Virus record (IMG/VR): IMGVR_UViG_3300030389_001497
Location: 1-24,050 of that record
DNA: 24,050 nucleotides
Direction: 5' to 3' (one strand)
Source of the DNA: a virus
A program made the translations under genes and the position numbers. The stretch's first letter is position 1, and every line of letters starts with the position of its first letter. Below are positions 6,497-23,930 of the stretch, one piece after another. The notes under the pieces were generated by a model. The model searched no databases. It saw only the letters and a list, made by a program, of their open reading frames with translations, and was not told the origin of the DNA.

Positions 6497-6706
6497 ATGT
6501 CCATAAAAAATCGACAAAATATATTTAAAACACCAGAGGATTTAAAGAGTTGGGCTATAGACTTATCAGAAGCCTGTGGGTCTAAATTAATAAATAAAAA
6601 ACATAATGTTTCTAAGATAGATGCGTTGATAGAAAAGTTTGTTTCTGACTATAATAAAAACATGCAAGATATGGTAAATTTAAAGAATAGTTTAGAAGAG
6701 GAATAA
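6497..6706 (+). CDS. Hypothetical protein, 69 aa
   Basis: The product begins MSIKNRQNIFKTPEDLKSWA and is predicted to be mostly helical (two or three helices), ending in LEEE. No family is recognised. The ATG at 6497 has a full AGGAGG (6486-6491) 5 nt upstream, which rules out the GTG at 6491. A small dyad CTATC-ttttt-GATAG lies just before the ribosome binding site. Its stop overlaps the next ATG by 1 nt, and its terminal Glu codons supply that gene's GAGGAA site. Confidence 0.75.
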   Translation: MSIKNRQNIFKTPEDLKSWAIDLSEACGSKLINKKHNVSKIDALIEKFVSDYNKNMQDMVNLKNSLEEE

Positions 6707-6966
6707 TGGCGAAAAAGAAACCTGCAAGGAAACCCTTGAATGAAAAAACAAAAGCAACTCTTAGAAAAAAAGCTGCTAAGTCAAAATACACGTATGGACA
6801 GCTCGCTAGAGTTTATAGGCGTGGACAAGGAGCATATTTATCATCAGGTTCTAGGTCAGCTTCCATGGCTGCTTGGGCTATGGGCAGAGTTAATAGTTTT
6901 ATTAGGGGTGGTCATTCTCAAGATAATGACATAAAGAGAGGCAAGAGTGCCAAGAAAAAAAAGTAA
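6706..6966 (+). CDS. Small basic phage protein, DUF5824-like, 86 aa
   Basis: The segment YTYGQLARVYRRGQGAYL (residues about 28-45) with WAMGRVNSFIRGG and an acidic QDNDI further on matches my memory of DUF5824, an uncharacterised family common in marine phages. That family has the pattern VYxRGxxA, then W(A/G)xxRVxSF, then D(K/N)D(L/I). The termini are strongly basic, pointing to DNA binding or packaging. It starts by TAATG overlap and is the first of the chain of basic mini-proteins ahead of the terminase. Confidence 0.72.
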   Translation: MAKKKPARKPLNEKTKATLRKKAAKSKYTYGQLARVYRRGQGAYLSSGSRSASMAAWAMGRVNSFIRGGHSQDNDIKRGKSAKKKK

Positions 6967-7144
6967 GAGAAAGGTTAAATATGAGAAAGGTGTACCTGCT
7001 AAGTATCTACAGAATAAAAGAAATTCTAAAGCGTCTGTGGCACGTGAAATTCGAAGTACAGCTAAGGCTTATAAGGAAGGACGATATATAGATTTGAAAG
7101 CTGTACAGAAATCAAGAGCTGTTAAAAGAAAGAAGAAAAAATAA
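6947..7144 (+). CDS. Small basic protein, 65 aa, GTG start
   Basis: The gene starts at GTG 6947 inside the end of the previous gene (20-nt overlap), with GAGAGG 5 nt upstream; there is no nearby in-frame ATG. It is highly basic at both ends (PRKKSKRK and VKRKKKK) around a core VPAKYLQ...REIRSTAKAYKEGRYIDL. The function is unknown. Its composition suggests nucleic-acid contact. The stop overlaps the next ATG by 1 nt. Confidence 0.7.
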   Translation: MPRKKSKRKVKYEKGVPAKYLQNKRNSKASVAREIRSTAKAYKEGRYIDLKAVQKSRAVKRKKKK

Positions 7145-7203
7145 TGGGCGGACCTGATTTAGACATTGAGTATGTTTTAGCAAAACAACAAGAGGAAGAG
7201 TAA
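7144..7203 (+). CDS. 19-aa acidic micro-protein
   Basis: This frame begins MGGPDLDIEY and ends QEEE. It is joined to its neighbours by 1-nt TAATG overlaps on both sides, and its final Glu codons form the GAGGAAGAG ribosome binding site of the next gene. It may be a true peptide or merely a translated coupling device. It is the only acidic member of the chain. Confidence 0.5.
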   Translation: MGGPDLDIEYVLAKQQEEE

Positions 7204-7331
7204 TGGCAAAAACTGTAAGCTGGATGTGGAAGGGCAAAAGATATTATGGAACTCTTATTAGAGAAACTAAGACACATAAGTTTGCGAGAACTAAAAATGG
7301 AAAGATAAAAAAAATAAGGAAGAAAAAATGA
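7203..7331 (+). CDS. 42-aa basic protein
   Basis: The product begins MAKTVSWMWKGKRYYGTL and is basic throughout, ending in IRKKK. It has a Trp/Tyr-rich beta-like start. GAGGAAGAG precedes the ATG, and a 4-nt ATGA overlap links it to the next gene. No family is recognised. A role alongside its basic neighbours in head assembly or DNA handling is inference. Confidence 0.62.
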   Translation: MAKTVSWMWKGKRYYGTLIRETKTHKFARTKNGKIKKIRKKK

Positions 7332-7501
7332 AAGTAAAAGGCGTAGATATATCAAAACTAACTAAATCACAGCAAAATGCTATGAAAAAACATTCTAAGC
7401 ATCATACTAAAAAACACATTCAGTATATGTATAATAGTATGAGAAGAGGAGCTAGTTTTAATAAAGCTCACGTAAACGCACAGAAGAAAGTAGGAAAATA
7501 A
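7328..7501 (+). CDS. 57-aa basic helical protein
   Basis: The gene starts within the ATGA overlap and has AAGGAAG 5 nt upstream. The product (begins MKVKGVDISKLTKSQQNAMK) is rich in Lys and His (KKHSKHHTKKH) and looks like two helices. The middle segment HIQYMYNSMRRGASFNKAH (about residues 30-48) is the most protein-like part. No family is assigned. The stop overlaps the next ATG by 1 nt. Confidence 0.62.
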   Translation: MKVKGVDISKLTKSQQNAMKKHSKHHTKKHIQYMYNSMRRGASFNKAHVNAQKKVGK

Positions 7502-7635
7502 TGCCAAAGGGTAATGGAGAATATTCAGCAGCTCAAAAAAAGATTGCAGCAGTTGCACCACCTTTTGATAAGATTACTGGAGCTGACTTTAAAAAACTTC
7601 GTCAGAGCGGTAAACGAAAACCAAAGATGAGCTAA
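7501..7635 (+). CDS. 44-aa basic protein
   Basis: The product begins MPKGNGEYSAAQKKIAAVAP, has a small central amphipathic part (PPFDKITGADFKKL) and ends basic. TAGGA lies 6 nt before the ATG and TAATG overlaps join it to both neighbours. The FDKITGxDFKKLR pattern is reminiscent of short, conserved phage head-region proteins, but I cannot name the family. Confidence 0.6.
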   Translation: MPKGNGEYSAAQKKIAAVAPPFDKITGADFKKLRQSGKRKPKMS

Positions 7636-7928
7636 TGCCACACAGTAATTCTGCAAGAAAAAAAAATTTATTAAAGAAACACGGACTAAAAGGTGTTAAT
7701 AAACCAAAGCGTACACCTAAACATAAAACTAAATCACATATTGTTTTAGCACAAGAAGGTCATCAACTTAAATTAATTAGGTTTGGACAACAGGGAGTAA
7801 CTACTGCAGGTAAAAAACAAGATGCAAGGTCGAAAGCAAGGAGAAAGTCTTTTAAAGCTAGACACGCAAAAAATATTAAAAAAGGTAAAATGTCTGCAGC
7901 ATACTGGGCTAACAGGGTTAAATGGTAA
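7635..7928 (+). CDS. Basic protein preceding terminase, 97 aa
   Basis: The N-terminal 35 residues are Lys-rich and probably disordered. The C-terminal half contains HIVLAQEGHQLKLIRFGQQGV and then RRKSFKARHAKN...GKMSAAYWANRVKW, a signature I associate with conserved uncharacterised proteins of marine tailed phages. The exact family cannot be named from memory. The SFKARH and YWANRVKW blocks suggest a small folded domain that contacts nucleic acid. It starts by TAATG overlap and its last 7 nt overlap the start of TerL, so it is tied to the packaging genes. Confidence 0.72.
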   Translation: MPHSNSARKKNLLKKHGLKGVNKPKRTPKHKTKSHIVLAQEGHQLKLIRFGQQGVTTAGKKQDARSKARRKSFKARHAKNIKKGKMSAAYWANRVKW

Positions 7929-9829
7929 ATGTTGTATGTATAGCAGACGATTGCAATAATTCTTTACCACCGAACGCTACAAAGTATTGTTCTAAAAAAT
8001 GTTATAGAAGAATATCTATGCGTATCAAAAGAGCAAAAGACAAAGGTGAAGAATATAAACTACCTATCAAAGATGTAAATCAACCACAAGCTGCAACAGT
8101 AAGACGTGGACAGTATTATGAGAAATTTATTAATGAAGGTTATGCATTAGAACTTTTAAATGGAAAGATAACTAGACAAGAAGTTGCTGCAGGTTTGGGA
8201 TGTACAGTCGGTAATGTAGCAAGACTTATGGCTGCATATCGGGAAGATATTGAAATAGAAGCAGCAACACAAAACTGGGAACTATCTGATGATGCAAAGC
8301 AATCATTAAAAGAGTTTAAAGGTTTTAGAGATAGATACTTTCTCACAGAACTAGGTGTACCTTTTGAAACAGCAGACTTTCACAATAAATGGATAAAGTC
8401 TATAAATAAAGCATTACTTAATGGTGGACAACAAATGATATTATCACCACCAAGACATGGCAAAACAGAACTTCTAATACACTTTGTAGTTTGGCTTATA
8501 TGCAGAAATCCAAACATTAGAATACTTTGGATAGGTGGTAATGAAGATATTGCAAAAAACTCTGTATCTTCTGTACTTGATACTTTAGAGAACAATGAAA
8601 GACTCAAAGAAGATTTTTGTGGACCTAATGGTTCATTTAAACCAGCTACAAGAACTGGTAAATCTTGGTCACAAAATGGCTTTACAGTATCTACAAGAAC
8701 TGTTTCAGGTATAAAATCACCTACAATGGTTGGTTTAGGTAGAGGTGGTAAGATTCTATCAAGAGACTGTGACATAATTATTGCAGACGACATTGAAGAC
8801 TTTTCATCAACTATGCAACCTGCATCAAGAAGAAACACAAAAAATTGGTGGACAACCACATTAGGTTCTAGAAAAGAAGAACATACAGCAATGGTTGTTA
8901 TTGGTTCAAGACAACACCCAGATGATTTATATTCTGCATTATTAGAAAACGAAGCATGGGAAACAATAGTAGAAGAAGCACATGATTCAATGTGCGTAAT
9001 ACCAGAGTTTGATGAAGATGACCATAAAGATTGTATGTTATGGGAAGATAAACGAAGTTTTAAATGGCTTATGAATAGAAAGAGAGATGCACAAACTACT
9101 GGTGGTGTACAAAGATTTGAGATGGTGTATCTAAATAAAGCACAGGCAAAAGGTTTATCTTTGTTTAATCCAGAAGTTATTAAAGAATGTTATGACCAGA
9201 ATGTTGATTTAGGTAACATACCACAATCTGCATACCTTGTTGCAGGACTTGACCCTGCTGCAACAGGTTATCAAGCAGGATTCTTGTGGGCAGTAGAAAC
9301 ATCTGCTGATGATATAAAGCTACAAATGGTAGATATGGAGAATCAACAAGGTGGTGGTCTTGAAGAAGCACGTAATCTTATAAAGAAATGGTTTGATATG
9401 TATGGATGTTATCACTGGGTAATAGAAGAAAATGGTTTTCAAAAAGCTATACGTCAAGATGAAACTACAAAACAGTTTGCAAATATGCACGGAATAAAAT
9501 TAGAAGGACACGAAACTCATAAAAACAAGTGGGATGAAAGATTTGGTGTTACAGCATTAGCACCGATGTTTGCAGAACATAAGATTGTTTTACCTTTTTA
9601 CTCGCCAGAAGCACAATCTAAGAGTATTGCATACACAAAACAACTTTCATATTTTGCTTCAAAAGGCAATAAAAACTCTTATAAAAGTGATATAGTAATG
9701 GCAAGCTGGTTTCCAATGAAAGTAATTAGAAACTTGCAAAAACTAACATATGCAGATATGGGATTAGATTACACTCCTAGTTATGAGGGTTACAATATGT
9801 TAGACTTAAATGACATACCATGGAGTTAA
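7922..9829 (+). CDS. terL: Terminase large subunit with N-terminal zinc knuckle and helix-turn-helix
   Basis: This is the 635-aa packaging motor and nuclease. The Walker A variant SPPRHGKT is at residues 175-182, Walker B IIIADD at 285-290 and the coupling motif VVIGSRQ at 325-331. The RNase H-like nuclease carries Asp444 (GLDPA), Glu502/Glu503 (VIEEN) and Asp590 (KSD). Before the motor there is extra sequence: a possible zinc knuckle (C6, C11, C23, C27) and a helix-turn-helix-like stretch at about 82-104 (ITRQEVAAGLGCTVGNVARL). Such a DNA-recognition part normally belongs to the small terminase, and no separate terS is seen nearby. The ATG overlaps the preceding gene by 7 nt. The protein acts at the portal to translocate and cut concatemeric DNA. 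Confidence 0.95.
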   Translation: MVNVVCIADDCNNSLPPNATKYCSKKCYRRISMRIKRAKDKGEEYKLPIKDVNQPQAATVRRGQYYEKFINEGYALELLNGKITRQEVAAGLGCTVGNVARLMAAYREDIEIEAATQNWELSDDAKQSLKEFKGFRDRYFLTELGVPFETADFHNKWIKSINKALLNGGQQMILSPPRHGKTELLIHFVVWLICRNPNIRILWIGGNEDIAKNSVSSVLDTLENNERLKEDFCGPNGSFKPATRTGKSWSQNGFTVSTRTVSGIKSPTMVGLGRGGKILSRDCDIIIADDIEDFSSTMQPASRRNTKNWWTTTLGSRKEEHTAMVVIGSRQHPDDLYSALLENEAWETIVEEAHDSMCVIPEFDEDDHKDCMLWEDKRSFKWLMNRKRDAQTTGGVQRFEMVYLNKAQAKGLSLFNPEVIKECYDQNVDLGNIPQSAYLVAGLDPAATGYQAGFLWAVETSADDIKLQMVDMENQQGGGLEEARNLIKKWFDMYGCYHWVIEENGFQKAIRQDETTKQFANMHGIKLEGHETHKNKWDERFGVTALAPMFAEHKIVLPFYSPEAQSKSIAYTKQLSYFASKGNKNSYKSDIVMASWFPMKVIRNLQKLTYADMGLDYTPSYEGYNMLDLNDIPWS

Positions 9830-9830
9830 T

Positions 9831-11564
9831 GTGACACCTGACCAGATTATAGATAGAGCAGTTTATCTTAAAAAGATGCATGACGACTCTCTTCTAGATA
9901 GAAGTAGATTTAGAAATATTCTTAATGGTGGTGAGCATGGTATAAGAGATTTACTAGGTGCAGGAATGGATAGTATGGACTCTTATACTTTACCAGCACC
10001 AAACTTATTATTATCTGCTTTAGATAGACTTGCACAAAAAATTGGCAAAGTTCCAACATTAGATGTACATATTACAAATGCTAGAGATAGTCAAAGAAAT
10101 AAAGGTAAGAAAGATAAATTAGAAAGAATCGTTACTGCATTTGATAAAATGCAAAGATTAGATTTACAACTTCCACAAGTAGCTAGATGGCTACCTGGTT
10201 ATGGATTTGCAGTATGGGTTATTACATCAAAACCAGATGCAAATGGAAATATGTATCCTTGTGCAGAACTGCGTAATCCTTATGATTGTTTTCCTGGATA
10301 CTATGGAAATATGCAAGAACCATCAGAACTTGCAATAATACAAAAAGTTCCTGTAAAGAATCTTATATCAATGTACCCAGAACTAAAAGCATATTTTGAA
10401 GCTGATAATAAAGAAACACAAGAACAGTTCTATAACATTTCATACAATCAATATACAAATGATGGCAGTTGGGAAAATACTAATGAAAGTGGAGAAGTAA
10501 TTGTTGAGTACATGAATATAGAAGGAACATACATTTTACATCCTGCTTCTAAAAAAATAGTTGATTTTGTTCCTAATCCACTTAAATCAGGTCCTGCATT
10601 TGTTATTGCAAAAAGATTTAGTTTTGATAAATTACAAGGTCAGTTTGACCAAGTCATAGGACTTATGGCTTCTATGGCAAAAATAAATATTTTATCTGTA
10701 ATAGCTATGGAAGATGCAGTATTTACAGAAACAAACATTATTGGAGAGTTAGAGTCAGGACAGTATAGAAAAGGTAGAAACTCTATAAACTATTTATCTC
10801 CTGGTTCACAAGTAGTAAAACCTGTAAACAATTTACCATATCAACTCTTTGAATCTGTAGGTAGATTAGAAAGACAACTTAGAGTTGTAGCTGGATATCC
10901 TGTACAAGATGATGCTATATCTCCAAACTCTTTTGTTACAGGTAGAGGACTAGAAGAATTAGAAGCTGGTGTTGGTGCAATGGTATCTGAATATCACACA
11001 ATACTTGAAAATGCTTTACAAGAGGTTGATTCAAAAAGATTAGAACTTGACCAAGTATTATTTGGAAGAACAAGAAAACCTATTAGTGGTACATACAAAG
11101 GTGCATCATTTGCAGAAAACTATACTCCTGCAACTGATATAGATAGTAACTTTGTAACAAAAAGAAAGTATGGAGCTATGGCTTCGTTTGATGCTCCAAA
11201 TAAAATTATTACTGGTTTGCAGTTATTACAAGCAGGAATAATTGATAAAGAAACTATGCAACAAGAAATGGATGGTTTAGAAAATCTAACACAAATTAAT
11301 GAAAGAATTGTAAAACAAAAAACAGAAGATATTTTATATTCTATGTTGCTACAACAATCACAGCAAGGTGATAAAGGTGCAATGATGGCTGTTGTAGAAA
11401 TATATAATAATCCAAAAAACATGGGTAACATATTAGAGAAGTACTTTACAACACAAGGTGAAGAACCAAGTCCTGAGGAACAACAAGTCTTACAACAGGC
11501 TCAAGCTCCTCAGCAACAAGGACCACCAAATCTTGCAGCATTGTTAGGAGGAGCTATTGGTTAA
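9831..11564 (+). CDS. Portal protein
   Basis: The product of 577 aa follows terL directly and has the expected size and pattern. The N-terminal helices are followed by a mixed core. A hydrophobic helix GLMASMAKINILSVIAMED lies at about residues 277-296, and a stem/crown-like helical block TGRGLEELEAGVGAMVSEY at about 369-387. The C-terminal tail is Gln/Pro-rich. It would form the dodecameric channel through which DNA enters the head. The GTG at 9831 is chosen because GGAG lies 5 nt upstream and it follows the terL stop by 1 nt. An in-frame ATG at 9810 would add seven residues but has no site. Its end contains the AGGAGG that serves the next gene. Confidence 0.85.
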   Translation: MTPDQIIDRAVYLKKMHDDSLLDRSRFRNILNGGEHGIRDLLGAGMDSMDSYTLPAPNLLLSALDRLAQKIGKVPTLDVHITNARDSQRNKGKKDKLERIVTAFDKMQRLDLQLPQVARWLPGYGFAVWVITSKPDANGNMYPCAELRNPYDCFPGYYGNMQEPSELAIIQKVPVKNLISMYPELKAYFEADNKETQEQFYNISYNQYTNDGSWENTNESGEVIVEYMNIEGTYILHPASKKIVDFVPNPLKSGPAFVIAKRFSFDKLQGQFDQVIGLMASMAKINILSVIAMEDAVFTETNIIGELESGQYRKGRNSINYLSPGSQVVKPVNNLPYQLFESVGRLERQLRVVAGYPVQDDAISPNSFVTGRGLEELEAGVGAMVSEYHTILENALQEVDSKRLELDQVLFGRTRKPISGTYKGASFAENYTPATDIDSNFVTKRKYGAMASFDAPNKIITGLQLLQAGIIDKETMQQEMDGLENLTQINERIVKQKTEDILYSMLLQQSQQGDKGAMMAVVEIYNNPKNMGNILEKYFTTQGEEPSPEEQQVLQQAQAPQQQGPPNLAALLGGAIG

Positions 11565-11796: not shown

Positions 11797-12154
11797 TCCA
11801 CAAACAAATAAAGCTCAGTTTGAATCAGAGAGTTATGGTCAAGGTGAAGAACTAAACGAACTGCAAAGAAATGCAGAAATGTTTGTACAAGAAAATCAAA
11901 CACCTGCTGCACCAGCGAATCCAAGAATGAACAGAGTAAGACAATTTATACAACCAGGTAAATCTATATTTGATACACCGACTAATAATCCTGGTGAAGA
12001 TGTATCGACAAGTCAATATAAGGCAGCTTCAGGGCAACCTATTTATGATGCGGACATGGTATTACGAAGAATGGCAAATGTGTTACAGAGTGCAGATATT
12101 ATAGCATTGATGAATGACGGAATGGCTCAAAACGAATCTGATAGAACGCTCTAA
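11783..12154 (+). CDS. Hypothetical protein, 123 aa
   Basis: No domain is recognised. The first 80 residues are polar and Gln/Asn/Pro-rich, probably disordered. The end (YDADMVLRRMANVLQSADIIALMNDG) forms a helix pair. GGAG lies 6 nt before the ATG. The position between the portal and the giant protein suggests a minor virion or assembly component. The stop overlaps the next ATG by 1 nt. Confidence 0.72.
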   Translation: MTRFNPQTNKAQFESESYGQGEELNELQRNAEMFVQENQTPAAPANPRMNRVRQFIQPGKSIFDTPTNNPGEDVSTSQYKAASGQPIYDADMVLRRMANVLQSADIIALMNDGMAQNESDRTL

Positions 12155-15100
12155 TGGCATATCGGTGGAACTTCACAGCTCCTTGGGAAGATGACCAGAA
12201 CGATGATTACAGAAACGAGTTACTAGGTCAAGCAGCCCAGATAGATAACTTTTTTGCTAACAATCCACAGATACCTTATAACATGCAAGGTATATCACAA
12301 AACTTTGGATTCTTACCTAAAGATGTACAAGTTGCTGGAGCAATGATTGGACTTACAAAAGATTCACCAGAGTTTCAAAGTATTGTAGAAAGATTTTTAG
12401 AAAAAGAAACATCTTGGTGGGAAGGTGTAAAAGCAGCAGGTAGAGGTTCTATTCGTTCGGCAATAGTCGGTATGGAATCTGCGTCACAGTTTGTAAAGAA
12501 GTTTGGTCAAGCAGGTATGAAATATTATTCAAAAAGAAAAATGAACCCTTTACTTGCATTTACAGGTATTGGAAGTCTTATACCTTTGATTGACCCTACA
12601 GGTAGAAATGAGATTGCACAGTCTTTTAAAGAACAAGGACCTACACTTGCAACTAGAGCATTTCAAGAACTTCGTCAAGGTAGAAAAGTAAATCTTGGTG
12701 AAGGATATTTTGGTAACTCTACTGTTGCAGAAGATACAGAAGTATATAAAGAACTTGTTGGTAGAGGTGCAGACCCTAATGAAGTAAAACAAATTATACA
12801 AGATTATTATGGAAAACCTATATCACAGTTAGAAATGAATACAAGAGAAGGTGGTGCAGGAACATACAGAGGTAGAAAAGGTACAGTAAAATTATCTCCT
12901 GGTCGTGTTGCTGCTGTAGAAGTGTTTGAACCTGGAACAAAGTCATTTAATCTTATGTCAGGTATTATTGATGCAGCGTATACTATTTTTACAGACCCAG
13001 CTACATATGTTGGTGCAGGATTTGCAAAAGCAGGTAAAGCAGCTAGAACTTTTAATTTATCATCTACAAAAGAAAAAGCAGGACTTATTGATAAAGTAGT
13101 AAGAAAAACTGTAAAGATACCTACAGCAAAACAATTTTTCTTTGAATCTAAAGTTGGAGATGATATTGCTCAAATGTTTGCTGACGCAAAAAGTTATGAT
13201 GAAATTGAAATACTTTTAGGTAAACAAGGAAAAAGAACAGCTGCAAGGTCTGCAGGTGGTGCAAAACTTTACAAAAGACTTAGAGATGCTGATAATAAAC
13301 AAACTGTTAAAAATATTTTAGTTGAAGCTATTGAAGACCCTATTGCTGATATATCACAAAGATTTGATGCTAACTCATTATTATTCAAAGGTTCATTATC
13401 AAGAGGTGCTGCAAAATTTATTTATGGAGATAAAGTAGCAGCTGCTGGATTAAAAACAGCAATGAAGCTTAATGGAACAAACAATACATTTGGAAGGTTA
13501 TTCCAAGTATTTCCAGCACCAAGAATAAATACAGATGATTTAAATACAACATTTTTTGAACTTAAAGATTTTATGAAGTTTGCAAAAGTTGATGATGATG
13601 TTGCTGTCAAAGCTTTAGATAGAATTGTAGATGCGATGGATGATGAAACTATACGAGCATTAGAAGGACAACCTGCATCGTTGCAAAAATTAAATATGAT
13701 GTTAGATATTTATGGTGGAGAGGGTGGTGTTTTACGACACATTCAAGATAAATTTAAAGCATTAGGTTTACCTGCTGGAGTAGTAAATCAAGTTGGAAAG
13801 CTTGTAGCAAGTGTTGATGAAGCAAATAAATATTTTTACAGTGCTTATGGTGAAGAAGCATGGAACTTACAAAAGATATCAATATTAGATAAAGGCAGAA
13901 ATAATTTAGATAATGTAGATTTTAAAATGGAAGAAGTTTTAGATATTATCGATGACATTGTAAATAACTCTGAAATCAAAAGAGTAAAAGGTATTAAAAA
14001 TGTTCAAGATGTAAAAGACGATTTTTTGCGTAAAAACCAATCAGCATCAAGAGTTCCAACAGATGAACCAGATGCAGAAATTATTGTAAATAAAGTTATA
14101 TCTAATGGTGGTAGAGGTGCAGATATACAAGCATTAAGAGTTGCAAAAGAACTTGATATTGAAACAGGTGGCACAGGAAATGTAGGTTTCAATGATACTG
14201 CACAAAGAGCAGATGGAAGTTTTAAATTTCACGAATCAGAACTTACTGATTTAGGTTTAACAGATGATACTGCAAGACAACTTAAATATATAGACGAAAG
14301 AATTAAACAAACAGAACTAGAAGCAGTAGGCGAAGATAGAAGAGGAACAGTTCTTCGTAATACACTTAATCAACTAAAACAAGTTAGAAAAAAATCCTCT
14401 GAAGAATTAAAAGCATTAGAAAGAGGATTTAAAGAAATGCAACTAAGTCCTATAGCTGATGACATTGCTATTCAAGATTTATTACAAAAAGCTGTATTAG
14501 CAAGAAAAATATTAAGAGGTGATGTATCAGATGTAAGAAATGCAGACATAGTTAGATATACAGAGCAAGAAAAAATTCTTAAATATGTAACTAATCTTAC
14601 AGAAGAAGGACCTACAAAAATATTAAGATATGATACTTTTGATAAAGCTGGATATCAAAGAGAAATAAAGAAATCTCAAAAAGCTCTCAATGACCTTAAA
14701 AAGAAAGTAGCAAGTTTAGATTCAAAAGTTAAACAAAGAGAGGACCTTATAAATAATGTTCAAACTACAAGGAAGCTTGATAGGTTACAAAAAGAAAAAG
14801 ATGCCTTAGAAAAAGGTTACGATTCTTTCCCTGCTCCAGCTAAATATTTTGTATCAAGGTCAAAAAAGAATATTGATGATGCTGATGTAACAATTGCTAT
14901 ATTTGATTCTGCAACTGCTCCAGCGGGTAAAGGAACTATAGGTGCAATTAATTACGCTAGAAAAGGCAAGTTTTCTCAAAGTGCAGTTCCAGAAGCTAAC
15001 AAAATTTACAAAGGTAACAAACCTTTAGTCGTTATTGATACATCACAAGAAATCACAAAAGAATTAGTAAATGAAGTACATCAATTATTAAAAAGATATC

Positions 15101-18100
15101 CTACTGTAAATGTTGTTGGACCAAGAACATTTACAGATGCAGACAAAATTAATCCTGTATTAAAAACATTATTTGTAAAAAATTCAGATGCATTTGATGT
15201 TGTTGATGGATTTAAAGTATTTAAAAATGCAAAAGTATCACCTAACCAGATACTTTCATATTTTTCAGAAATCACAACAGATGACGAAGTTTTGCAGCAA
15301 GTAACAGATTCAGTATTAAAGAAAGCAAATTTTGGTGAATTAGAATCAGTAGTAGGCAGACCTACAGCACATTTGATTTCAGAATATTTAGCATCAGGTT
15401 CACTACCTTTGCCAGATGCAAGATTATTTTTAAGAGTATTTTCTCCAGCAAGAGAGTTCTGGTCAAGAATAGTTCCTTCAACTAGAAAGAGTTTAAAAAG
15501 TAAACAAACTGTTCAATTAGAAGATGGAAGAGAATTTGACCTTTCTGATTTTGAAAAGATGTTAGCTAAACCTGTAAAGGAACTTTTTGATTTACAAACA
15601 TCAGACCAAAAAGGAATTACAGCTTGGGCAAGACAAACAGTAAAAACAGCTAGAAGAAGATTTGATTTATCTGCAGATGATTCAGATGCTAATGCATTAG
15701 TACAAGGTTGGTTTTCATTATTAGGAGACAATTACATGAACAAAGCTTGGAAGCCATTCATACTTATTAGAGGTGCGTGGACTGCAAGAGTTGTTGGTGA
15801 AGAACAAATCAGAATGTGGGCTGCAGATTTAGATAATGTATTTACACATCCATTATCAGCTTTTGCTTGGATTATGGGTAAAAACAGAAAAGAAGTTTTA
15901 AATGCTATAGGAGACCCAGAAGATATAAAACTATTACAAACAATTAGAAAAGGACAATTCAGTATTAGAGATGATGAAGTTCTAGGTGAAGCTTTACAGC
16001 ATCAAGCTGCTATGTCTTTATCTCATGGTGGTATTTTAGATGGAGATAAACTAAAAAGAACATTTGCTTTTAAAGGTGTTGAAAAAGGACAAGCAGGATA
16101 TCATGGTGCAGCTGCATCTGAAATATATCAACTTGTAGATGACCCTCTTGCAGCTAATTTAGCAACTATCAGAGGTTCTTTAGAAGAAACAAGATTAGGT
16201 GTACAAAATATAAAAGATAGATTTTGGGATGGAGATTTATCTACTTGGAGAACAGCACTTGCTTATGGTTCTGATGAAGCAGGAAAGTATCAAAAGATAA
16301 AAGTTTTGAATGATAGAAAGTGGGCAGACGATTATGTAGATTCTGTTTTAGCTAGATTACATTATAAAACAGGCGGTTCATATAAAGTTACAGAGGTATT
16401 ACCAGATGGAACAAGAAGGGTATTTGATGATATAGAAGGTATGAAAAGAATTAGAAAGTCTCCACAATCTGAAATAGAGTTTGAACTTACAAAAGTAGGA
16501 GATGATGAATTACTTTCACATGTAGCTGCAGGTGTAGATGGAATTGAATCAGGACTTGTAAAAGTTGTTATTGATGGTGATGAAATAGCTATAGGTAGAA
16601 AATCAACTATTGGAATGAAAAAGAAATATGTCAAATGGTTAGCTAATAAAGACCCTTATCAACAATATCATGTAATGAAAAAATCAGTATTTGATATGGA
16701 TGGTGAAAGAGTAAGTTCTTATGATGCAGCAATAGAAAGATTATTTAGTATTGTAATGTCCTCTCCAACAAATAGATTATCTCGTTCACCTGCTTTTAGA
16801 CAATTTTATTGGAGATTTATGGAAGACAACATAGCATACTTTGATGATTCTTTAAGAGCACAAATAAAAAAACAAGCTCAAGCTTCTCAACTTGATAAAA
16901 AATTTATTAAAAAATTAGATACAACAGGTAAAGTATCAGCTGATGAAGGTAAGATTTTAAGACTCGATGATTTAGATTCATTAGATGAAACAGCAAAAGC
17001 TTATGCATTAGCCGAAACTAAATCACTTCTTTATGATTTAAATAGACGACATGTTGTATCAGATATGCTTAGACTAGCATTTCCATTCGCAGAAGTTTAT
17101 ATAGAAATTATGGGTACATGGTCAAGATTATTAAATAAAAAGAAATTATTAGCAACTCGTAAAATATCAAGAGGTATTGAGGGAGCAAGAAAAGCAGATT
17201 TGAATGATGACGATGAAGGATTTTTTCATACAGACGAAATGACAGGAGAAGAAATGTTTTTCTTTCCTGGCTCAGAAATGTTGACAAATTGGATGTTCGA
17301 AGGCAACAGAGATGGAAGAACAGTAGAAAATCCTACAACAGGTGAAAACATAGATGCACCAGATGCAAGAATAAATTTGAAAGGATATGTTTCATCACTT
17401 AACATGATTGTTGGAAATCCAGCACCAGGTTTAGGTCCATTAGTTGCTATACCAGCATCTAGAATTTTGCCAAAGACTGAATTGATAGATAAAATATTTT
17501 TTCCGTATGGGAGAGAAACTGATAGTCCTTTTAATCCATATACTTTTGCAGATGCTTTGATACCTTCTTGGGCAAAAAAAGCATTATCAATGGGTTCAAA
17601 TAATCCAGAAATACAAAGAAGTTTTGCTAACACATACAAAGATGTTATAAAAATGTTTGTTACTACAGGACTTTATGATGACAGTACACCTGCAAAACAA
17701 CAACAAGCATTGCAAGAAGCTAAAAAAACTGCAATGTTTTTAACTATGGCAAGAACTCTTATACAGTTTGCAGCTCCTACAGGTGCAGTAATTAGATATG
17801 ATGTAGAAGTTGCACCTGGTGGACAAATGCATATTGACCCATTACAAAGCAAAGATGCAGACCCTAATCATCATTTCTATGGAATATCTGTATTATCAGA
17901 TGCTTATTACAGAATACTTTCTAAATACAAAGGAGACCAAGTATTAGCTACAAAAGAATTTGTAAATCAATTTGGATTAGACCCTACAGCTTTATTAGTT
18001 TCCAAATCAAAAGAAATAACAAAAAGAAGTTATACAGATGAAGGTGTCAAGTTCAAAAGATTAAATGAAGATTTTATGGGTATTTACCCAGATACAGCAT

Positions 18101-18735
18101 ATTATTTATTTCCTGATAATCCATTAGATGAATTTAATTTTGTAGCTTGGGCAGAGTCTTTTGCAAATAGAGATAGAGTTGATTTGACAGATGATGAGTA
18201 TATTACTGCAGTAAGACAAGCACAAGGTAGATTAGCTTATGAATATCAAAGAAGATTATTGTTCGATTCTGGTGTACATAATAATTTATCACCTGCAAGA
18301 AAATATGAAATACTTACAGATTTAAGAATGGCTCTTAGAAAAGAATATCCTGGATATGGACAAACTTCTCAAACTGCAAAATCAATAGATGCTGAATCAA
18401 AAAGATTACAACTTATTGATATGTTAGAAAGAGAAGGAGACAGAATAATTAATTTACCTAATGGAGATAAAGTTCCTTTGAAAGAACTTAATTCTATGGC
18501 AGGTTTTGCTGAATACATGGAAGCTAGAAATAATGTATTAGCAATTATTCAATCAAGAGATGGTGTAAGAGCATCACTAAAAAGACAAGAGTATGCATAC
18601 TTTAGAGAAGTTTTAAGAAGAAAAGCTCAAGAATTATTTTCAGCTTACCCTGATTTCTACTACATTTATGATGATATACTAAGATTTGAAATAGAAGAAG
18701 AATTTACTGACGTATTCACACCTATGGAGTATTAA
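12154..18735 (+). CDS. Giant virion protein (2193 aa) with a split SLOG/cpYpsA-like domain; candidate polyvalent protein
   Basis: The protein is far larger than any neighbour and uninterrupted. Residues 648-657 (VISNGGRGAD), followed by VAKELDIETGG, match the start of the circularly permuted YpsA/molybdenum-cofactor-carrier branch of the SLOG superfamily. The remaining motifs appear later: RSKKNIDDADVTIAIFD from about 902, a Gly-rich GKGTIGAINYARKG, KPLVVIDTS, and NVVGPRTFTDA near 985-995. Between the halves lies a coiled-coil insertion (about 702-893). A hydrophobic patch is at 130-150, and a segment AFPFAEVYIEIMGTW lies near 1642-1656. Giant phage proteins encoded near the portal and injected with the DNA are known as polyvalent proteins. 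This fits, but injection is inferred. Translation is coupled by TAATG on both sides; no Shine-Dalgarno site is seen. Confidence 0.82.
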   Translation: MAYRWNFTAPWEDDQNDDYRNELLGQAAQIDNFFANNPQIPYNMQGISQNFGFLPKDVQVAGAMIGLTKDSPEFQSIVERFLEKETSWWEGVKAAGRGSIRSAIVGMESASQFVKKFGQAGMKYYSKRKMNPLLAFTGIGSLIPLIDPTGRNEIAQSFKEQGPTLATRAFQELRQGRKVNLGEGYFGNSTVAEDTEVYKELVGRGADPNEVKQIIQDYYGKPISQLEMNTREGGAGTYRGRKGTVKLSPGRVAAVEVFEPGTKSFNLMSGIIDAAYTIFTDPATYVGAGFAKAGKAARTFNLSSTKEKAGLIDKVVRKTVKIPTAKQFFFESKVGDDIAQMFADAKSYDEIEILLGKQGKRTAARSAGGAKLYKRLRDADNKQTVKNILVEAIEDPIADISQRFDANSLLFKGSLSRGAAKFIYGDKVAAAGLKTAMKLNGTNNTFGRLFQVFPAPRINTDDLNTTFFELKDFMKFAKVDDDVAVKALDRIVDAMDDETIRALEGQPASLQKLNMMLDIYGGEGGVLRHIQDKFKALGLPAGVVNQVGKLVASVDEANKYFYSAYGEEAWNLQKISILDKGRNNLDNVDFKMEEVLDIIDDIVNNSEIKRVKGIKNVQDVKDDFLRKNQSASRVPTDEPDAEIIVNKVISNGGRGADIQALRVAKELDIETGGTGNVGFNDTAQRADGSFKFHESELTDLGLTDDTARQLKYIDERIKQTELEAVGEDRRGTVLRNTLNQLKQVRKKSSEELKALERGFKEMQLSPIADDIAIQDLLQKAVLARKILRGDVSDVRNADIVRYTEQEKILKYVTNLTEEGPTKILRYDTFDKAGYQREIKKSQKALNDLKKKVASLDSKVKQREDLINNVQTTRKLDRLQKEKDALEKGYDSFPAPAKYFVSRSKKNIDDADVTIAIFDSATAPAGKGTIGAINYARKGKFSQSAVPEANKIYKGNKPLVVIDTSQEITKELVNEVHQLLKRYPTVNVVGPRTFTDADKINPVLKTLFVKNSDAFDVVDGFKVFKNAKVSPNQILSYFSEITTDDEVLQQVTDSVLKKANFGELESVVGRPTAHLISEYLASGSLPLPDARLFLRVFSPAREFWSRIVPSTRKSLKSKQTVQLEDGREFDLSDFEKMLAKPVKELFDLQTSDQKGITAWARQTVKTARRRFDLSADDSDANALVQGWFSLLGDNYMNKAWKPFILIRGAWTARVVGEEQIRMWAADLDNVFTHPLSAFAWIMGKNRKEVLNAIGDPEDIKLLQTIRKGQFSIRDDEVLGEALQHQAAMSLSHGGILDGDKLKRTFAFKGVEKGQAGYHGAAASEIYQLVDDPLAANLATIRGSLEETRLGVQNIKDRFWDGDLSTWRTALAYGSDEAGKYQKIKVLNDRKWADDYVDSVLARLHYKTGGSYKVTEVLPDGTRRVFDDIEGMKRIRKSPQSEIEFELTKVGDDELLSHVAAGVDGIESGLVKVVIDGDEIAIGRKSTIGMKKKYVKWLANKDPYQQYHVMKKSVFDMDGERVSSYDAAIERLFSIVMSSPTNRLSRSPAFRQFYWRFMEDNIAYFDDSLRAQIKKQAQASQLDKKFIKKLDTTGKVSADEGKILRLDDLDSLDETAKAYALAETKSLLYDLNRRHVVSDMLRLAFPFAEVYIEIMGTWSRLLNKKKLLATRKISRGIEGARKADLNDDDEGFFHTDEMTGEEMFFFPGSEMLTNWMFEGNRDGRTVENPTTGENIDAPDARINLKGYVSSLNMIVGNPAPGLGPLVAIPASRILPKTELIDKIFFPYGRETDSPFNPYTFADALIPSWAKKALSMGSNNPEIQRSFANTYKDVIKMFVTTGLYDDSTPAKQQQALQEAKKTAMFLTMARTLIQFAAPTGAVIRYDVEVAPGGQMHIDPLQSKDADPNHHFYGISVLSDAYYRILSKYKGDQVLATKEFVNQFGLDPTALLVSKSKEITKRSYTDEGVKFKRLNEDFMGIYPDTAYYLFPDNPLDEFNFVAWAESFANRDRVDLTDDEYITAVRQAQGRLAYEYQRRLLFDSGVHNNLSPARKYEILTDLRMALRKEYPGYGQTSQTAKSIDAESKRLQLIDMLEREGDRIINLPNGDKVPLKELNSMAGFAEYMEARNNVLAIIQSRDGVRASLKRQEYAYFREVLRRKAQELFSAYPDFYYIYDDILRFEIEEEFTDVFTPMEY

Positions 18736-20117
18736 TGGAACAAGAAGCAAATTTAAAAGGTAAAGTCCTTAGAGAAGCAATAATCAAAACAGGCTTAGAT
18801 ATAAAGACAGTTGCTAATGCTTTTGCTAATGATATAGCTAATTTTCTTGGAATATCTGGTAGGGCAGCAGCACAAATGCTTACATTTATTGGTCAAGGTG
18901 AAAATACAATGGCACAATCACAAGCTTTACTTGGTCAAGGATTTGAGTCTAATCCTAAAATAGTTGCATTTATGGCTGGTCTTACAGGAGATGATTACAA
19001 CCCATTAGATGAAATAGATGAACAAAGACAAGCTGCAGCTGGTGAAGCACCAGAAGATGTAATAGAAGTAGCACAAAGAGAATATGCTAATATGTCTCAG
19101 CAAGTTGCTGAAACTTCTAGAAGAAGAGCAAGAACAGAACCTACCATTGATGAGCAAAGGGAAAAACTTTTTGCTGAATATAAAGAGGATAAAAATATAG
19201 ATAAATTACTTTCTGGCTTACAAGATTTAGAAAATGTTGAAGCAATAGTAGGAACTCAATACGCATTTGAATCACAATATTTAAATCCAGATACTACAGC
19301 ATATTATGGTTTTGATGCAAGTCCTTATGCATTAGAAACATATAGAGCACAGGCAGGAGACCAAGACCTTGTTCCCATATACAATACTGGTTTACATTTA
19401 TCTTTTTTAAATAATATGCCAGCTGATAGAGTTATTGACTTTCAATTAGCTTTAGAAGCAGCTGGATTTTTAGACCCTGCAAATATATCAGGAGAATTTG
19501 ATGAAGCAACACAATTAGCATTACAAGGTGCATTTACATATATGAATCCAAAAAAAGAATTTGGAATAAATGTAAATGATTTAAATGATATTGCAATAGC
19601 ATCTGGTGGAAATAATGCTGCATTTTTAGGATTTATTCATGATATATTTTTAGACCAATTAGAAGATATAGACCCTAGTGTTATTGACCCAGATAGAACA
19701 GGACCTGATATTGTAACTTTGCCTGATAGTGAAATGCTTGGACAACAAATAGAAAATGCTATATCACAATATAGTGGATTACCAAGTATGGAACTTTTAT
19801 TACCTGATATTAGAGATTGGGCTAACGGAAAGATAAAAGAACTTAATGATAAAGCTGCAGAAGTAAATCAACTTAGTGCTAATCAATACAATATGGCTGC
19901 TCGTGATGCTGCAAGAAGAAGAAAATTTGGTCTTGAACCAAAACAGTATGAAGTAAGAGGACCTTTAGATAGAGAAGATTTATCAAATGCATTTGAGTTT
20001 GAATTAGATAAATATATTAAACAAACTTATGCACCACTTATTGAGGCTAATCAAGTAGACCAAGCAAGAAGACAAGGTATAGCTAGTTTGATTTCTGCAT
20101 TTAGTGTAGGAAGATAA
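18735..20117 (+). CDS. Virion-module protein, 460 aa, with peptidoglycan-binding-like repeat
   Basis: The protein is largely helical and acidic. Around residues 228-271 the sequence reads MPADRVIDFQLALEAAGF, then ISGEFDEATQLALQGAF. This resembles the short helical peptidoglycan-binding-domain pattern (LQxxLxxxGF...GxFDxxTxxAVxxF), so the protein may touch the cell wall during entry. The match is by pattern only. The first 60 residues contain Ala-rich helices, and residues 95-150 look coiled. Coupled starts (TAATG) join it to the giant protein and to the next gene, which suggests they are made in fixed order and may work together in ejection. Confidence 0.7.
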   Translation: MEQEANLKGKVLREAIIKTGLDIKTVANAFANDIANFLGISGRAAAQMLTFIGQGENTMAQSQALLGQGFESNPKIVAFMAGLTGDDYNPLDEIDEQRQAAAGEAPEDVIEVAQREYANMSQQVAETSRRRARTEPTIDEQREKLFAEYKEDKNIDKLLSGLQDLENVEAIVGTQYAFESQYLNPDTTAYYGFDASPYALETYRAQAGDQDLVPIYNTGLHLSFLNNMPADRVIDFQLALEAAGFLDPANISGEFDEATQLALQGAFTYMNPKKEFGINVNDLNDIAIASGGNNAAFLGFIHDIFLDQLEDIDPSVIDPDRTGPDIVTLPDSEMLGQQIENAISQYSGLPSMELLLPDIRDWANGKIKELNDKAAEVNQLSANQYNMAARDAARRRKFGLEPKQYEVRGPLDREDLSNAFEFELDKYIKQTYAPLIEANQVDQARRQGIASLISAFSVGR

Positions 20118-20836
20118 TGGACGGAGAACAAATACCTTGGATAGATTGGATAAATGAAATTATCGTTGCGGCAGAAGAACTTAAAGAAAAAGGTGCTCAA
20201 TTAGCTAAAGACCCATCTGAAGATATACAAGTATTACATAACATGATTGCAATATCTGCAGCAGAGTGGAGAGATGGTAATAAAGTAAATGAAGCTGGAC
20301 CAAGTATGGGTAAAGCTCTTGGTGATGAAGAATCATATTCACCTGCACAAATATACAAACCAGTATGGGGAAAGGATACAAGTTCTGTAGATGTGAGCAT
20401 TATAAATAATCCTCTTGTTCCTGAATTTCAAAATATAGATGGAGATAAACTTATGGAGCTAATATCAGATGATGTATCTCTTGCAGCTAAAGCATATGTA
20501 ATTATTTTACAAAATAAAAGAGGTTACGATATTTGGTCAACTTGGGATGATTTTGTTACAAATCCTGATACACCACAATACTTAGATTATGCACAACAAT
20601 ATTCATTTGAAAGTTTGAATACACCAAGTGATGCTGTTGACCCTGATAGATTGTTTACACCAGACAGAGAACCTGGAACAGGTAGATTATTGCAAGATGG
20701 TAAACCTTTACCAGTAGAAAAAAGAGTTACATTTTCTACAAAAGATAATAGAGAAAGACAAAGAAGATGGCTTGCATCAGTTAAACTAAAAGGAATACTT
20801 AGCGATGCAATAGTGGAGGCAATAAATGTCGACTAA
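20117..20836 (+). CDS. Hypothetical virion-module protein, 239 aa
   Basis: The protein is acidic and starts MDGEQIPWIDWINE. The first half is helical; the middle contains DDVSLAAKAYVIILQNKRGY followed by Trp-rich IWSTWDDF. A proline-rich stretch (DPDRLFTPDREPGTGRLLQ) follows and the end is basic. No family is recognised. It starts by a 1-nt overlap with the previous gene and overlaps the next by 11 nt. A structural role is inferred only from position. Confidence 0.72.
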   Translation: MDGEQIPWIDWINEIIVAAEELKEKGAQLAKDPSEDIQVLHNMIAISAAEWRDGNKVNEAGPSMGKALGDEESYSPAQIYKPVWGKDTSSVDVSIINNPLVPEFQNIDGDKLMELISDDVSLAAKAYVIILQNKRGYDIWSTWDDFVTNPDTPQYLDYAQQYSFESLNTPSDAVDPDRLFTPDREPGTGRLLQDGKPLPVEKRVTFSTKDNRERQRRWLASVKLKGILSDAIVEAINVD

Positions 20837-22184
20837 AAATGTAGATTTAGATTTAACAATAGAAGGACAATCTGTTGATAGTTTTAAAAAAGATAATGAC
20901 AATCAAACTGTAAATACTTCTAGTGCAGGTGTTTTTTCATATTCAAATAAACCAACACCTGAAGCTGTATATTTTGATGGTAATTTTTATTATTTTTTGT
21001 GGGATGTATCTCAAACATTAGATGAACCAGATGGAACTTCATTCCTAGCATATAATGCAGGAAAAAAATATAATCCATATGGTTTTGGTGATACTGTGAG
21101 TGGAGCAAAAAGAATAGGACCAAGAGCTGTAACTACAGCACCTGGAATATTATTAGGAGAAGATTTATTAAGAGTAGGAGACATATCACCTGCATACAAT
21201 AATTTAGATAATTGGAATCCTGGAGAAACATTTGATGACAGGATTGCATTGTATGAAGATGTTGCTCCATGGTTTTTTGATGCTGTAGTAGATGAAGATG
21301 GTAACGTAGATTATCCTGGAATGGATTTATTGTTTGATTTAGTTATCAACAATACTCCTATAGACCCAGGAGACCCAAGACTTCTAGCTATACAAGCACC
21401 ATACACTACAGAAACTATTGAATATTTAAATGCTTTAGGTCCACAGGGTTACAACATTGGTGGCAAACCAAATATGAAGCTTGTTGCTTTACGAGAAACA
21501 AGAACTACACAATTAGATAACGCATTTAGTCGTTTGGGTTTAAATCCAAATGATTATAAAAAAGATAATCCAGAACTATACGAGCAGCTATTACAGCGAG
21601 CAGTAGAAGGAAATATATCTGTTGCACTACTACCAAAATTTGTTGGTTACGTAGAAAACATGGATGGATACGCAGTAGCAAAAGATTCACCTTTATATAG
21701 CTTATTTTCTGCTGAATCTGCAAAGTTGACTGCTGATAGTTCTGGGTTAGATTTATCTGATTATATATTTAACAATAAAAATACAGCAAAAGGTATTGAA
21801 GTCTTAGGTGCAGGTGTATTCAATTCACTATCTGAAGCAGACAAAAAGAAAGGTGCTTTATTGTTTGCAACTGAAGGAACTGAAAGTGTAGAGGAATACT
21901 ATCAAAATATATTTGATACAAATCCATACTTTTCTAGATTTGCAGGTAAAGGACTAAACTATACAAAAGTTGCTGCACCTTACATAAAACTTTATACATC
22001 TGTATATGGAGAAGCTCCTGATGAAGAAGCAGATTTCTTTTTAGGACAGTTTCAAAATGATTACAATACTGCAGCTATAAACTTTAGACAAAATGCTTAC
22101 GATACAGGTAATAAATTTTTTGGATATAATGTAGCATCACTTATGAACAAATCATTAGGTGGTCCAGTAGTTAGGGCAATATAG
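20826..22184 (+). CDS. Hypothetical virion-module protein, 452 aa
   Basis: GGAGG lies 6 nt before the ATG, the best ribosome binding site in this part of the module, suggesting higher expression than its coupled neighbours. The first 120 residues are polar and Gly/Thr/Tyr-rich, a beta-like composition seen in surface or tail proteins. The remainder is mostly helical, with LNALGPQGYNIGG and LDNAFSRLGLNPNDYKK blocks. No domain is recognised. The stop TAG overlaps the following GTG by 1 nt. Confidence 0.75.
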   Translation: MSTKNVDLDLTIEGQSVDSFKKDNDNQTVNTSSAGVFSYSNKPTPEAVYFDGNFYYFLWDVSQTLDEPDGTSFLAYNAGKKYNPYGFGDTVSGAKRIGPRAVTTAPGILLGEDLLRVGDISPAYNNLDNWNPGETFDDRIALYEDVAPWFFDAVVDEDGNVDYPGMDLLFDLVINNTPIDPGDPRLLAIQAPYTTETIEYLNALGPQGYNIGGKPNMKLVALRETRTTQLDNAFSRLGLNPNDYKKDNPELYEQLLQRAVEGNISVALLPKFVGYVENMDGYAVAKDSPLYSLFSAESAKLTADSSGLDLSDYIFNNKNTAKGIEVLGAGVFNSLSEADKKKGALLFATEGTESVEEYYQNIFDTNPYFSRFAGKGLNYTKVAAPYIKLYTSVYGEAPDEEADFFLGQFQNDYNTAAINFRQNAYDTGNKFFGYNVASLMNKSLGGPVVRAI

Positions 22185-23269
22185 TGGCAAAAGTAACTTA
22201 TTATAGAAAAGACTTTTTGACAGGTTATCAAATTGATACTGACAATACAGCTCAAATAGAAGCTTTAGAAGACGCAGGCTATACAACAAATTTTGCAGAA
22301 GCAGAAGCTGCTTCATTTACAGGGGGAGGACAAAATTTTATTGGTAATACTGCTAACACAGCAGATGAACCATTATCAGATAGTTTTCAAGCAAACTTTA
22401 CTGTAGAACAAGCAAAGGTATTACTACCTTACATTACTAAGTTAGACCCACAAAGAGGTGAAAAACTTATAAAAGCATATGTAGATGGATATATACAATC
22501 AGGTAAAGTTGAGTTTGCATTAGCTGCTTTACGTGCAGCACCAGAATATGATGAAATGTTTAATGGTATAAAAAGAAGTGATGGTTCATTAAGAATGACA
22601 GAGGCACAATATCTTCAAAATAAAGAAGCTGTATTAGTTCATTTTAACGAATATAACTTAGGTGGATATGCAAAAGAAAACATTGATACTGTATTTCCTA
22701 AATTACTTTCTAATAATGTATCACCAGATGAAATGAGACAAAGATTACAAGCAGTCACTGATACTATAAATGCAGTTCCACAAGACCAAAAAGCACAGAT
22801 ACTTGGCGAATATCAACAATATTATTCAACAGAACTTGGAGAATTTGTAGAGCCTAATGAATCTACACTTGTTGCTTTAGCAATAGACCCAGAAGTAAAT
22901 GCACAGATACTTTCTAAAAGACTTAATGTATCACAGATAAGTGCAACATTTGAGAGAGTAACAGGAGAAGATATAGACTTTGATGCTGTACAAAGACTTA
23001 TTGGTAGTGGTATTACTGCACAAAGAGCTGCAAGTGAGTTTGAAACAGCTACAGCAAGAGCTCTCACAGCATCAAGATTAGCTAGAAGATTTAATAGACA
23101 AAATCAAGATTATACAGCATTAGAATTTGCAGAGTTTGGAGCAGCACCAGATACAAACTTTATGGAACAAATAGGTTCTTTATCTGCACAAGCTGAAACA
23201 GAAAGTGCAGTAGCAACAGGTGCAAGACAAAATAGAGAAGGTCAAGTTACAGGCTTGACAGAGCAATAA
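22184..23269 (+). CDS. Hypothetical virion-module protein, 361 aa, GTG start
   Basis: Translation starts at GTG, sharing one base with the stop of the previous gene (TAGTG). The product begins MAKVTYYRKDFLTGYQ. The first 60 residues are a small beta-like unit plus a Gly-rich linker (SFTGGGQNFIG); the rest is Ala-rich and helical. It includes APEYDEMFNGIKRSDGSLRM and SNNVSPDEMRQRLQAV blocks that look conserved, and a basic helix RALTASRLARRFNRQ near residue 300. No family is named. It is the last gene of the coupled chain. The next promoter's -35 lies inside its final codons. Confidence 0.75.
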   Translation: MAKVTYYRKDFLTGYQIDTDNTAQIEALEDAGYTTNFAEAEAASFTGGGQNFIGNTANTADEPLSDSFQANFTVEQAKVLLPYITKLDPQRGEKLIKAYVDGYIQSGKVEFALAALRAAPEYDEMFNGIKRSDGSLRMTEAQYLQNKEAVLVHFNEYNLGGYAKENIDTVFPKLLSNNVSPDEMRQRLQAVTDTINAVPQDQKAQILGEYQQYYSTELGEFVEPNESTLVALAIDPEVNAQILSKRLNVSQISATFERVTGEDIDFDAVQRLIGSGITAQRAASEFETATARALTASRLARRFNRQNQDYTALEFAEFGAAPDTNFMEQIGSLSAQAETESAVATGARQNREGQVTGLTEQ

Positions 23270-23281
23270 ACCTGCTATACT
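23255..23281 (+). promoter_or_regulatory. Promoter of the scaffold-capsid unit
   Basis: A perfect TTGACA (23255-23260) and TATACT (23276-23281) are separated by 15 nt, with TGC directly before the -10, an extended -10 element that tolerates the short spacing. The predicted start is about 23288, the first base of a perfect hairpin. It would let the highly expressed capsid genes be transcribed independently of the long upstream operon. Confidence 0.72.
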
Positions 23282-23447
23282 AGATGTAGTGCCTGGCAGG
23301 ATTCGGCACTCAAAATATAGGGCTGCAGACGCGATGACACAGCCAAGGTGTGTCGTTTGACATTCGTAAATCCTTGTGAAATCCCTTTAATTACCTAGCG
23401 ATTATGTATATGGGATTATTTATATGCTAGAGAAAATGGAGAAAATA
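23270..23447 (+). other. Structured leader of the scaffold-capsid transcript
   Basis: About 160 nt separate the predicted start from the scaffold ATG. The leader opens with AGTGCC/GGCACT (23288-23293, 23305-23310). A 9-bp stem follows (23333-23341 with 23349-23357; core GACACA/TGTGTC, two G-U pairs on the plus strand). A competing stem is GGCTG/CAGCC (23321-23325, 23340-23344). AATCCC/GGGATT arms lie near the 3' end. Mutually exclusive stems suggest a switch or an RNA-protein binding site. A TTGACA at 23357 lacks a -10. Confidence 0.5.
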
Positions 23448-23930
23448 ATGGAAGAAAATAAATTAGACCAAGCTACAGAAGATGCAATTGAGGAAGCTGT
23501 AGAATCTAACGACAATATAAAGCAACTTAGAGATGAGTTCAAAAAACTTAAAGCTGAGAACAAAGCATTCAAGGCACAAGCCATGAATACTGCATTAGAG
23601 TCATTAGGTTTAGAAGCTGACAAAGGCATTGGGAAAGCTGTAACAAAACTTTACGATGGAGAAATGAATGTAACTGACATCAAAGATTTTGTTAACAACG
23701 AGTTCGGTGATGCTATTAATGCTGAACCTGTCGTTGAAAATAAAGTTGCAGATAATGTTACTGAAGCTCAAGGAAGAGTTGAACAGCTTAATAAACTTGG
23801 TATAAACGCTGAACCTGTTGATATATCACAAGAGTTCAACAACTTCATTAATGATTCCAACACAAGCACAAGAGATTCTATCAACGCTAAATTGCGTATG
23901 TTAGATACTCTTAAGGAAGACAAAAAATAA
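23448..23930 (+). CDS. Scaffold-like protein, 160 aa
   Basis: The protein is acidic and helical with a heptad-like coiled coil (IKQLRDEFKKLKAENKAFKAQ spans residues 24-44), and its gene sits 19 nt before that of the predicted major capsid protein. This is the size, composition and place of a capsid scaffolding protein, which guides procapsid assembly and then leaves or is cut. No protease gene is seen in the window. I chose ATG 23448, with GGAG 6 nt upstream; in-frame ATGs at 23424 and 23436 are weaker alternatives. It is the first gene behind the dedicated promoter. Confidence 0.75.
   Translation: MEENKLDQATEDAIEEAVESNDNIKQLRDEFKKLKAENKAFKAQAMNTALESLGLEADKGIGKAVTKLYDGEMNVTDIKDFVNNEFGDAINAEPVVENKVADNVTEAQGRVEQLNKLGINAEPVDISQEFNNFINDSNTSTRDSINAKLRMLDTLKEDKK

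Follow-up and report, generated by a model that had tools for sequence, protein, structure and literature searches.

What a nucleotide-binding domain could do in the middle of a giant phage protein is the question raised by IMG/VR virus record IMGVR_UViG_3300030389_001497, of which positions 1 to 24,050 were analysed here as one stretch of DNA of 24,050 nucleotides (the window). A first-pass annotation had proposed that its 2193-amino-acid (aa) open reading frame (ORF), referred to as the giant, encodes a virion protein with a SLOG domain of the circularly permuted YpsA (cpYpsA) type. SLOG domains, which serve bacteria in sensing and signalling, represent hubs of nucleotide signalling and anti-phage defence. 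One that enters the cell as part of an ejected virion protein would be active ahead of any viral gene expression. The results below show that the giant ORF contains a cpYpsA-type SLOG domain in two collinear halves (Table 1) and indicate that the giant most probably belongs to the ejection (internal virion) proteins of podoviruses. We give about an even chance to the reading that it is an ejected podovirus-type protein with a built-in ligand-responsive SLOG switch, or a sensor of the host nucleotide state at entry.

PF12694 represents the circularly permuted YpsA family of the SLOG superfamily and has a curated Pfam cut-off of 26.2 bits. The window segment scored just under this cut-off, through its second half only (25.3 bits, E=1.4e-5), while five relatives passed it (L020 with 42.4 bits and E=7.3e-11 over two stretches, L018 with 40.0, L024 with 38.9, L011 with 38.2 and L005 with 27.4). 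In G003, G005 and G006 the two halves matched separately and in order (profile positions 1-67 and then 53-128 in G003), and PF12694 matched none of 14 control genomes. A profile of 16 family members (A1) was compared with all PDB sequences, and its best match was the cpYpsA crystal structure 3imk, a putative molybdenum carrier of Syntrophus aciditrophicus (E=0.004), in three collinear pieces covering residues 8-37, 53-81 and 127-144. The shared motif order is II.G...G.D/E, GG, R..N..D.D.T, G..GT, KP...D and N..GPR. The motifs quoted in the first-pass annotation (VISNGGRGAD, IETGG, KPLVVID and others) were all found in the ORF where it had placed them, and the second half of the domain displays KYF..R..KN.DDADVTIAIFD (residues 897-918), KPLVVID (956-962) and NVVGPRTFTDAD (986-997). 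Some relatives have a textbook first glycine loop (IISGGNTGVDLEALRVGKELGLETGG in L050), and the second half alone as query gave matches confined to contigs of the same clade. Chance resemblance could be argued from the sub-threshold score of the window alone. However, relatives match down to E=7e-11 with both halves ordered, the controls are free of matches, and sequence-profile and fold searches independently reach 3imk; the assignment is thus beyond chance, and we regard a fortuitous match as hardly credible. This confirms the proposed cpYpsA identity and excludes a "no match" outcome of the profile search. As for its extent, the annotated end (14095-15180) stood, while the start moved to 14083, with the halves meeting at residues ~699 and ~893.

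The predicted fold, modelled with AlphaFold2 for residues 628-1015 from 16 sequences (predicted local distance difference test, pLDDT, of 83), is Rossmannoid alpha/beta like 3imk, in agreement with the sequence evidence, and its alpha/beta strand order is interrupted by long helices. The top PDB match of this model in Foldseek was 3imk (probability 0.99, TM score 0.48 by target, E 0.08), and among its top viral matches are two SLOG proteins, a DprA and a molybdenum-cofactor carrier. Because the DprA match (a predicted model only; TMt 0.58) extends over 393 aligned columns, it probably reaches across both SLOG halves; weak Foldseek E-values are an expected effect of the insert. The Rossmann-like fold that had been anticipated was obtained in the model, and its structural matches gave no sign of halves that fail to join. 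The annotated split by a ~190-aa coiled coil likewise held, with profile matches and model both placing a helical insert between the halves. The insert is ~190 aa long in the window and 190-230 aa in relatives, and the three collinear pieces of 3imk position it between 3imk residues ~37 and ~53. By contrast, 3imk itself is a compact protein of 158 aa, whereas the window domain has this insert and an altered GGWxPxG segment and sits in a 2193-aa phage protein.

The giant gene was found in ~38 IMG/VR contigs with 54-99% identity in the best segment, full-length relatives of the protein being 59-99% identical. Both SLOG halves and the insert are kept in every inspected contig spanning the block (about 26 IMG/VR contigs). 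Toward relatives outside the closest group of the window (L005-L020), identity is 45-68% in the SLOG halves and 26-44% in the insert, and dN/dS (the ratio of nonsynonymous to synonymous substitution rates) in the halves is 0.04-0.13 in closer pairs, indicating purifying selection. Invariant or nearly invariant positions comprise the loop glycines (first and second loop), the acidic residue that follows the first loop, ETGG, R902, N906, K926, N933, D962 and GPR at 989-991. This pattern bears on the possibility of structural exaptation, in which the SLOG fold would bind no ligand and only provide a compact base on which the helical hairpin is mounted in the virion core. Ejection proteins are architectural, and the first glycine loop varies among relatives (NGGRGAD, GGGPGSE, GGNVGVD) with the usual P-x-G segment gone, as such a platform would allow. 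However, the Gly, Asp/Glu, N, K and GPR positions stay (nearly) invariant although the hairpin drifts, and the nearest SLOG-less relatives manage without the domain, so that exaptation appears unlikely to us.

Those SLOG-less relatives are the giants of Streptomyces phages and of Caudovirales sp. ct2KA10 (1764 aa), neither of which gave a PF12694 match even at E=1, and the ct2KA10 giant has no counterpart of the SLOG block. Since relatives without the domain also lack a counterpart of the block, the sequence comparison suggests that it was probably gained within the marine clade, and that a podovirus ejection protein is apparently able to acquire a signalling-type domain.

Gene order supported the annotated location in a phage virion gene block and allowed "virion protein" to be sharpened to "ejection protein", based on a gene order shared with Streptomyces podoviruses, on profile similarity to the giant of these phages and on absence of cysteine. 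The giant gene is placed between the portal and a scaffold-like ORF/major capsid protein (MCP), a tape measure is not recognisable in the phage, and actinobacteriophages are largely the nearest relatives for terminase, portal and capsid. With the Beephvirinae (Streptomyces podoviruses) the window shares the order large terminase, portal, small ORFs, giant, further genes up to gp13/phrog_8424, scaffold-like ORF and MCP; in Immanuel3 the full series runs from terminase through lysin, portal and small ORFs to the giant (gp9, 1648 aa), followed by gp10-gp13, tRNAs, scaffold-like ORF and MCP. The window giant occupies the same slot as gp9 and is likewise cysteine-free, with profile matches that are weak but collinear. 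The 361-aa ORF downstream of it is grouped with phrog_8424, the family of Immanuel3 gp13, and the 168-aa ORF is a predicted scaffold by position. This Streptomyces group is podoviral by transmission electron microscopy, as seen for Abafar (PMC11536984) and Destructrice (PMC13097060), and the latter report also records no tape measure protein. By contrast, the Beephvirinae have no SLOG domain, a GC content of about 60% and soil hosts. The ct2KA10 giant shares the equal gene slot, absence of cysteine and homology over the C-terminal 380 residues (E=7e-7) but differs by having no SLOG domain.

Across the giant and the five ORFs that follow it (3873 aa), no cysteine is encoded (0/2193 in the giant), while the all-ORF average in these phages is 0.6-0.8%; the probability of zero cysteines at 0.4-0.8% is 2e-7 to 7e-14. 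As far as inspected, cysteine is also missing, counted from the start codon, in the giants throughout the clade and in those of the Streptomyces phages and ct2KA10. The same holds for the ejected proteins N4 vRNAP (3500 aa), T7 gp15 and gp16, and P22 gp7, gp16 and gp20, T7 gp14 having one cysteine, and in N4-like phages cysteine absence has been linked to vRNAP injection and passage through the tail (PMC3715699, PMC2784036). We infer packaging and ejection of the giant from these features, with cysteine absence as support and not as proof, because some scaffold and capsid proteins are cysteine-free too. A protein of assembly or of the tail core, retained in the particle or lost before maturation, would also be compatible with a gene that adjoins a scaffold-like region, since scaffolds can lack cysteine and the virion status of the giant is read from genes. 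Its size, the absence of cysteine over the whole length and the synteny with podoviruses devoid of a tape measure (PMC13097060) fit ejection proteins instead, making such a role very unlikely. The cysteine-free gene block (12154-23930, + strand), a trait conserved in the clade, is a possible simple marker for other ejected cargo.

How could a SLOG domain work in an ejected protein? The giant would be stored in the capsid and enter the host via the short tail together with DNA, being delivered at low copy number. A ~190-aa helical hairpin would leave the mid-protein SLOG domain downstream of the ETGG loop and before the second half. Once in the cytoplasm, the domain would bind an abundant or signalling nucleotide, of nicotinamide adenine dinucleotide (NAD)/ADP-ribose or adenine-nucleotide type by analogy to the YpsA clade, and this binding would move the inserted helices, resulting in a switch in the ejected machine or a sensor of the host nucleotide state. 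LOG enzymes carry a PGGxGTxxE motif with a catalytic glutamate. No such glutamate was found in the family, as the corresponding segment reads G-K-G-[TS]-x-G-x-x-N-Y-A without an acidic residue in all relatives, favouring binding rather than cleavage. A tentative extension is that the ejected giant reads NAD-derived or other nucleotide signals of the host early, with the inserted helices relaying them to the DNA-entry machinery or a host target. With a SLOG domain carried in an ejected protein, it would become directly testable whether phages sense or disarm host nucleotide signals at entry.

An injected SLOG domain might alternatively act as an anti-defence effector that captures or degrades NAD-derived immune signals (e.g., cyclic ADP-ribose isomers) and pre-empts Thoeris-type defence, which we consider possible but doubtful; the link to Thoeris-like signals is speculative, as the first-pass annotation had also stated. 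Injection would have the domain in place at the right time. Aravind and co-workers propose such a role for viral SLOGs, mostly of the YpsA-like clade, and propose that ART, Macro, NADAR and Nudix domains are packaged in virions (PMC9503650). However, no co-encoded Macro, NADAR or Nudix partner was seen among the scanned proteins (part of the relatives' ORFs), no PADLOC match was obtained, and large ejection proteins are too few for a stoichiometric sponge, T7 gp16 being present at about 3 copies per virion by the T7 record. Together with the missing LOG glutamate, these low numbers per particle disfavour both a sponge and a LOG-type hydrolase.

Several points weigh against an ejected SLOG switch or sensor. 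The C-terminal 1194 residues gave a poor model (pLDDT 41) and uninformative Foldseek results, so the target of a switch was not revealed, and we know of no established ligand for cpYpsA proteins. The first loop of the window (NGGRGAD) and loss of the usual GGWxPxG segment are departures from canonical cpYpsA. On the side of ejection, the Streptomyces gp9 family is matched weakly (E 5e-4 and 0.04), cysteine-free capsid and scaffold proteins exist, and the giant is known here from genes of uncultured viruses.

Apart from the SLOG domain, the giant gave no recognised domain in Pfam, PHROGs or the C-terminal fold search; NCBIfam and PADLOC scans gave it no SLOG or defence call. Polyvalent proteins, multidomain proteins that unite at least two unlike biochemical activities, and N4 vRNAP (virion RNA polymerase) are likewise giant, encoded in late gene blocks and predicted or known to be injected, vRNAP also being cysteine-free (PMC5512222), but in the window giant only SLOG was recognised and neither a zincin, ART or RNAP domain nor one of any other known enzyme was found. 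The text of that polyvalent-protein survey names neither SLOG nor YpsA. The available portions of the viral NAD/ADP-ribose domain survey describe a YpsA-like SLOG clade in phages, as in the window, proposed to act on NAD-derived signals; they present SLOGs as typically standalone and do not name SLOG among virion-packaged domains (PMC9503650). In tblastn searches, the giant protein and its SLOG block matched no isolate phage record, and the block matched no plasmid. Because the surveys, as far as available, are without it and isolate phages and plasmids gave no match, a split SLOG domain in an ejected, polyvalent-like protein appears to be new.

Table 1. Coordinates of the giant ORF, its SLOG block and neighbouring genes in the window.
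Feature	Position	Strand	Basis or remark
Terminase large subunit	7922..9829	+	phrog_38, E=5e-64; Streptomyces podoviruses among best relatives
Portal protein	9810..11564	+	Matches Streptomyces podovirus portal genes, E down to 7e-23
Giant ORF, 2193 aa	12154..18735	+	Longest ORF of the window; holds the SLOG block; predicted to be an ejection (internal virion) protein
Giant residues 205-395	12766..13338	+	Collinear with Immanuel3 gp9 153-331 in one comparison (hhalign E=5.3e-4)
cpYpsA SLOG first half, residues ~644-699 (glycine loop and helix between strands 1 and 2)	14083..14250	+	PF12694 positions 1-67 in G003/G005; A1 profile to 3imk residues 8-37; model E20-22, H29-39, E43-45
Glycine loop VISNGGRGAD, residues 648-657	14095..14124	+	Canonical GGNTGVD loop in L020/L050
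ETGG motif (IETGG, residues 669-673)	14161..14172	+	Invariant across all relatives
Helical insert, residues ~700-892	14251..14829	+	Splits the SLOG domain; mostly helical in model
cpYpsA SLOG second half, residues ~893-1009	14830..15180	+	PF12694 positions 39-129; A1 profile to 3imk 53-81, 127-144
Second glycine loop GKGTIG, residues 925-930	14926..14943	+	G-K-G-[TS]-x-G in all relatives
NVVGPR motif ("GPR" of cpYpsA)	15109..15126	+	Aligns with NIAGPR of 3imk
Giant residues 1686-2066	17209..18351	+	Homologous to ct2KA10 1764-aa giant 1307-1668; hhalign probability 92, E=7e-7
Five ORFs 3' of giant (460, 239, 452, 361, 168 aa)	18735..23930	+	Zero cysteine in each

Beta-lactamase matches of the giant (E about 0.1) were dismissed as chance. 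Two relatives only carry an extra insertion of ~110 aa at window residue ~1112 of the giant (L023:8793-9217 and L024:12676-13100). The giant gene is spread over three frames in L022 (G004:6813-13548), and in L023 a stop is found at codon 646, directly upstream of the SLOG block; these may reflect assembly error, split proteins or decay.

The family represents marine viruses of bacteria that are probably short-tailed. Their GC content is 34-36%, and 'Candidatus Actinomarinales' have about 32.5% GC, with known phages of 33.6-36.5% (PMC7771536). Low GC combined with actinophage-like structural genes suggests a 'Candidatus Actinomarinales' host, and scanning genomes for a possible host or prophage gave no match. 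The L005 contig (G001; 52898 bases) carries the same genes at its two ends, displaced by 41183 bases, indicating a genome of about 41.2 kb. Just 5' of the terminase, a run of small ORFs (6706-7928, + strand) encodes five or six very basic proteins (42-97 aa, net charge +8 to +27), possibly DNA-binding or packaged; several in this run are 75-98% identical in relatives and one weakly resembles DUF5824. On the opposite strand, positions 1-1252 encode a MoxR/CobS-like AAA ATPase adjoining a relative of G001_23, the latter being a protein with a DCSGSMG VWA-like motif, together forming a MoxR-VWA-type pair.

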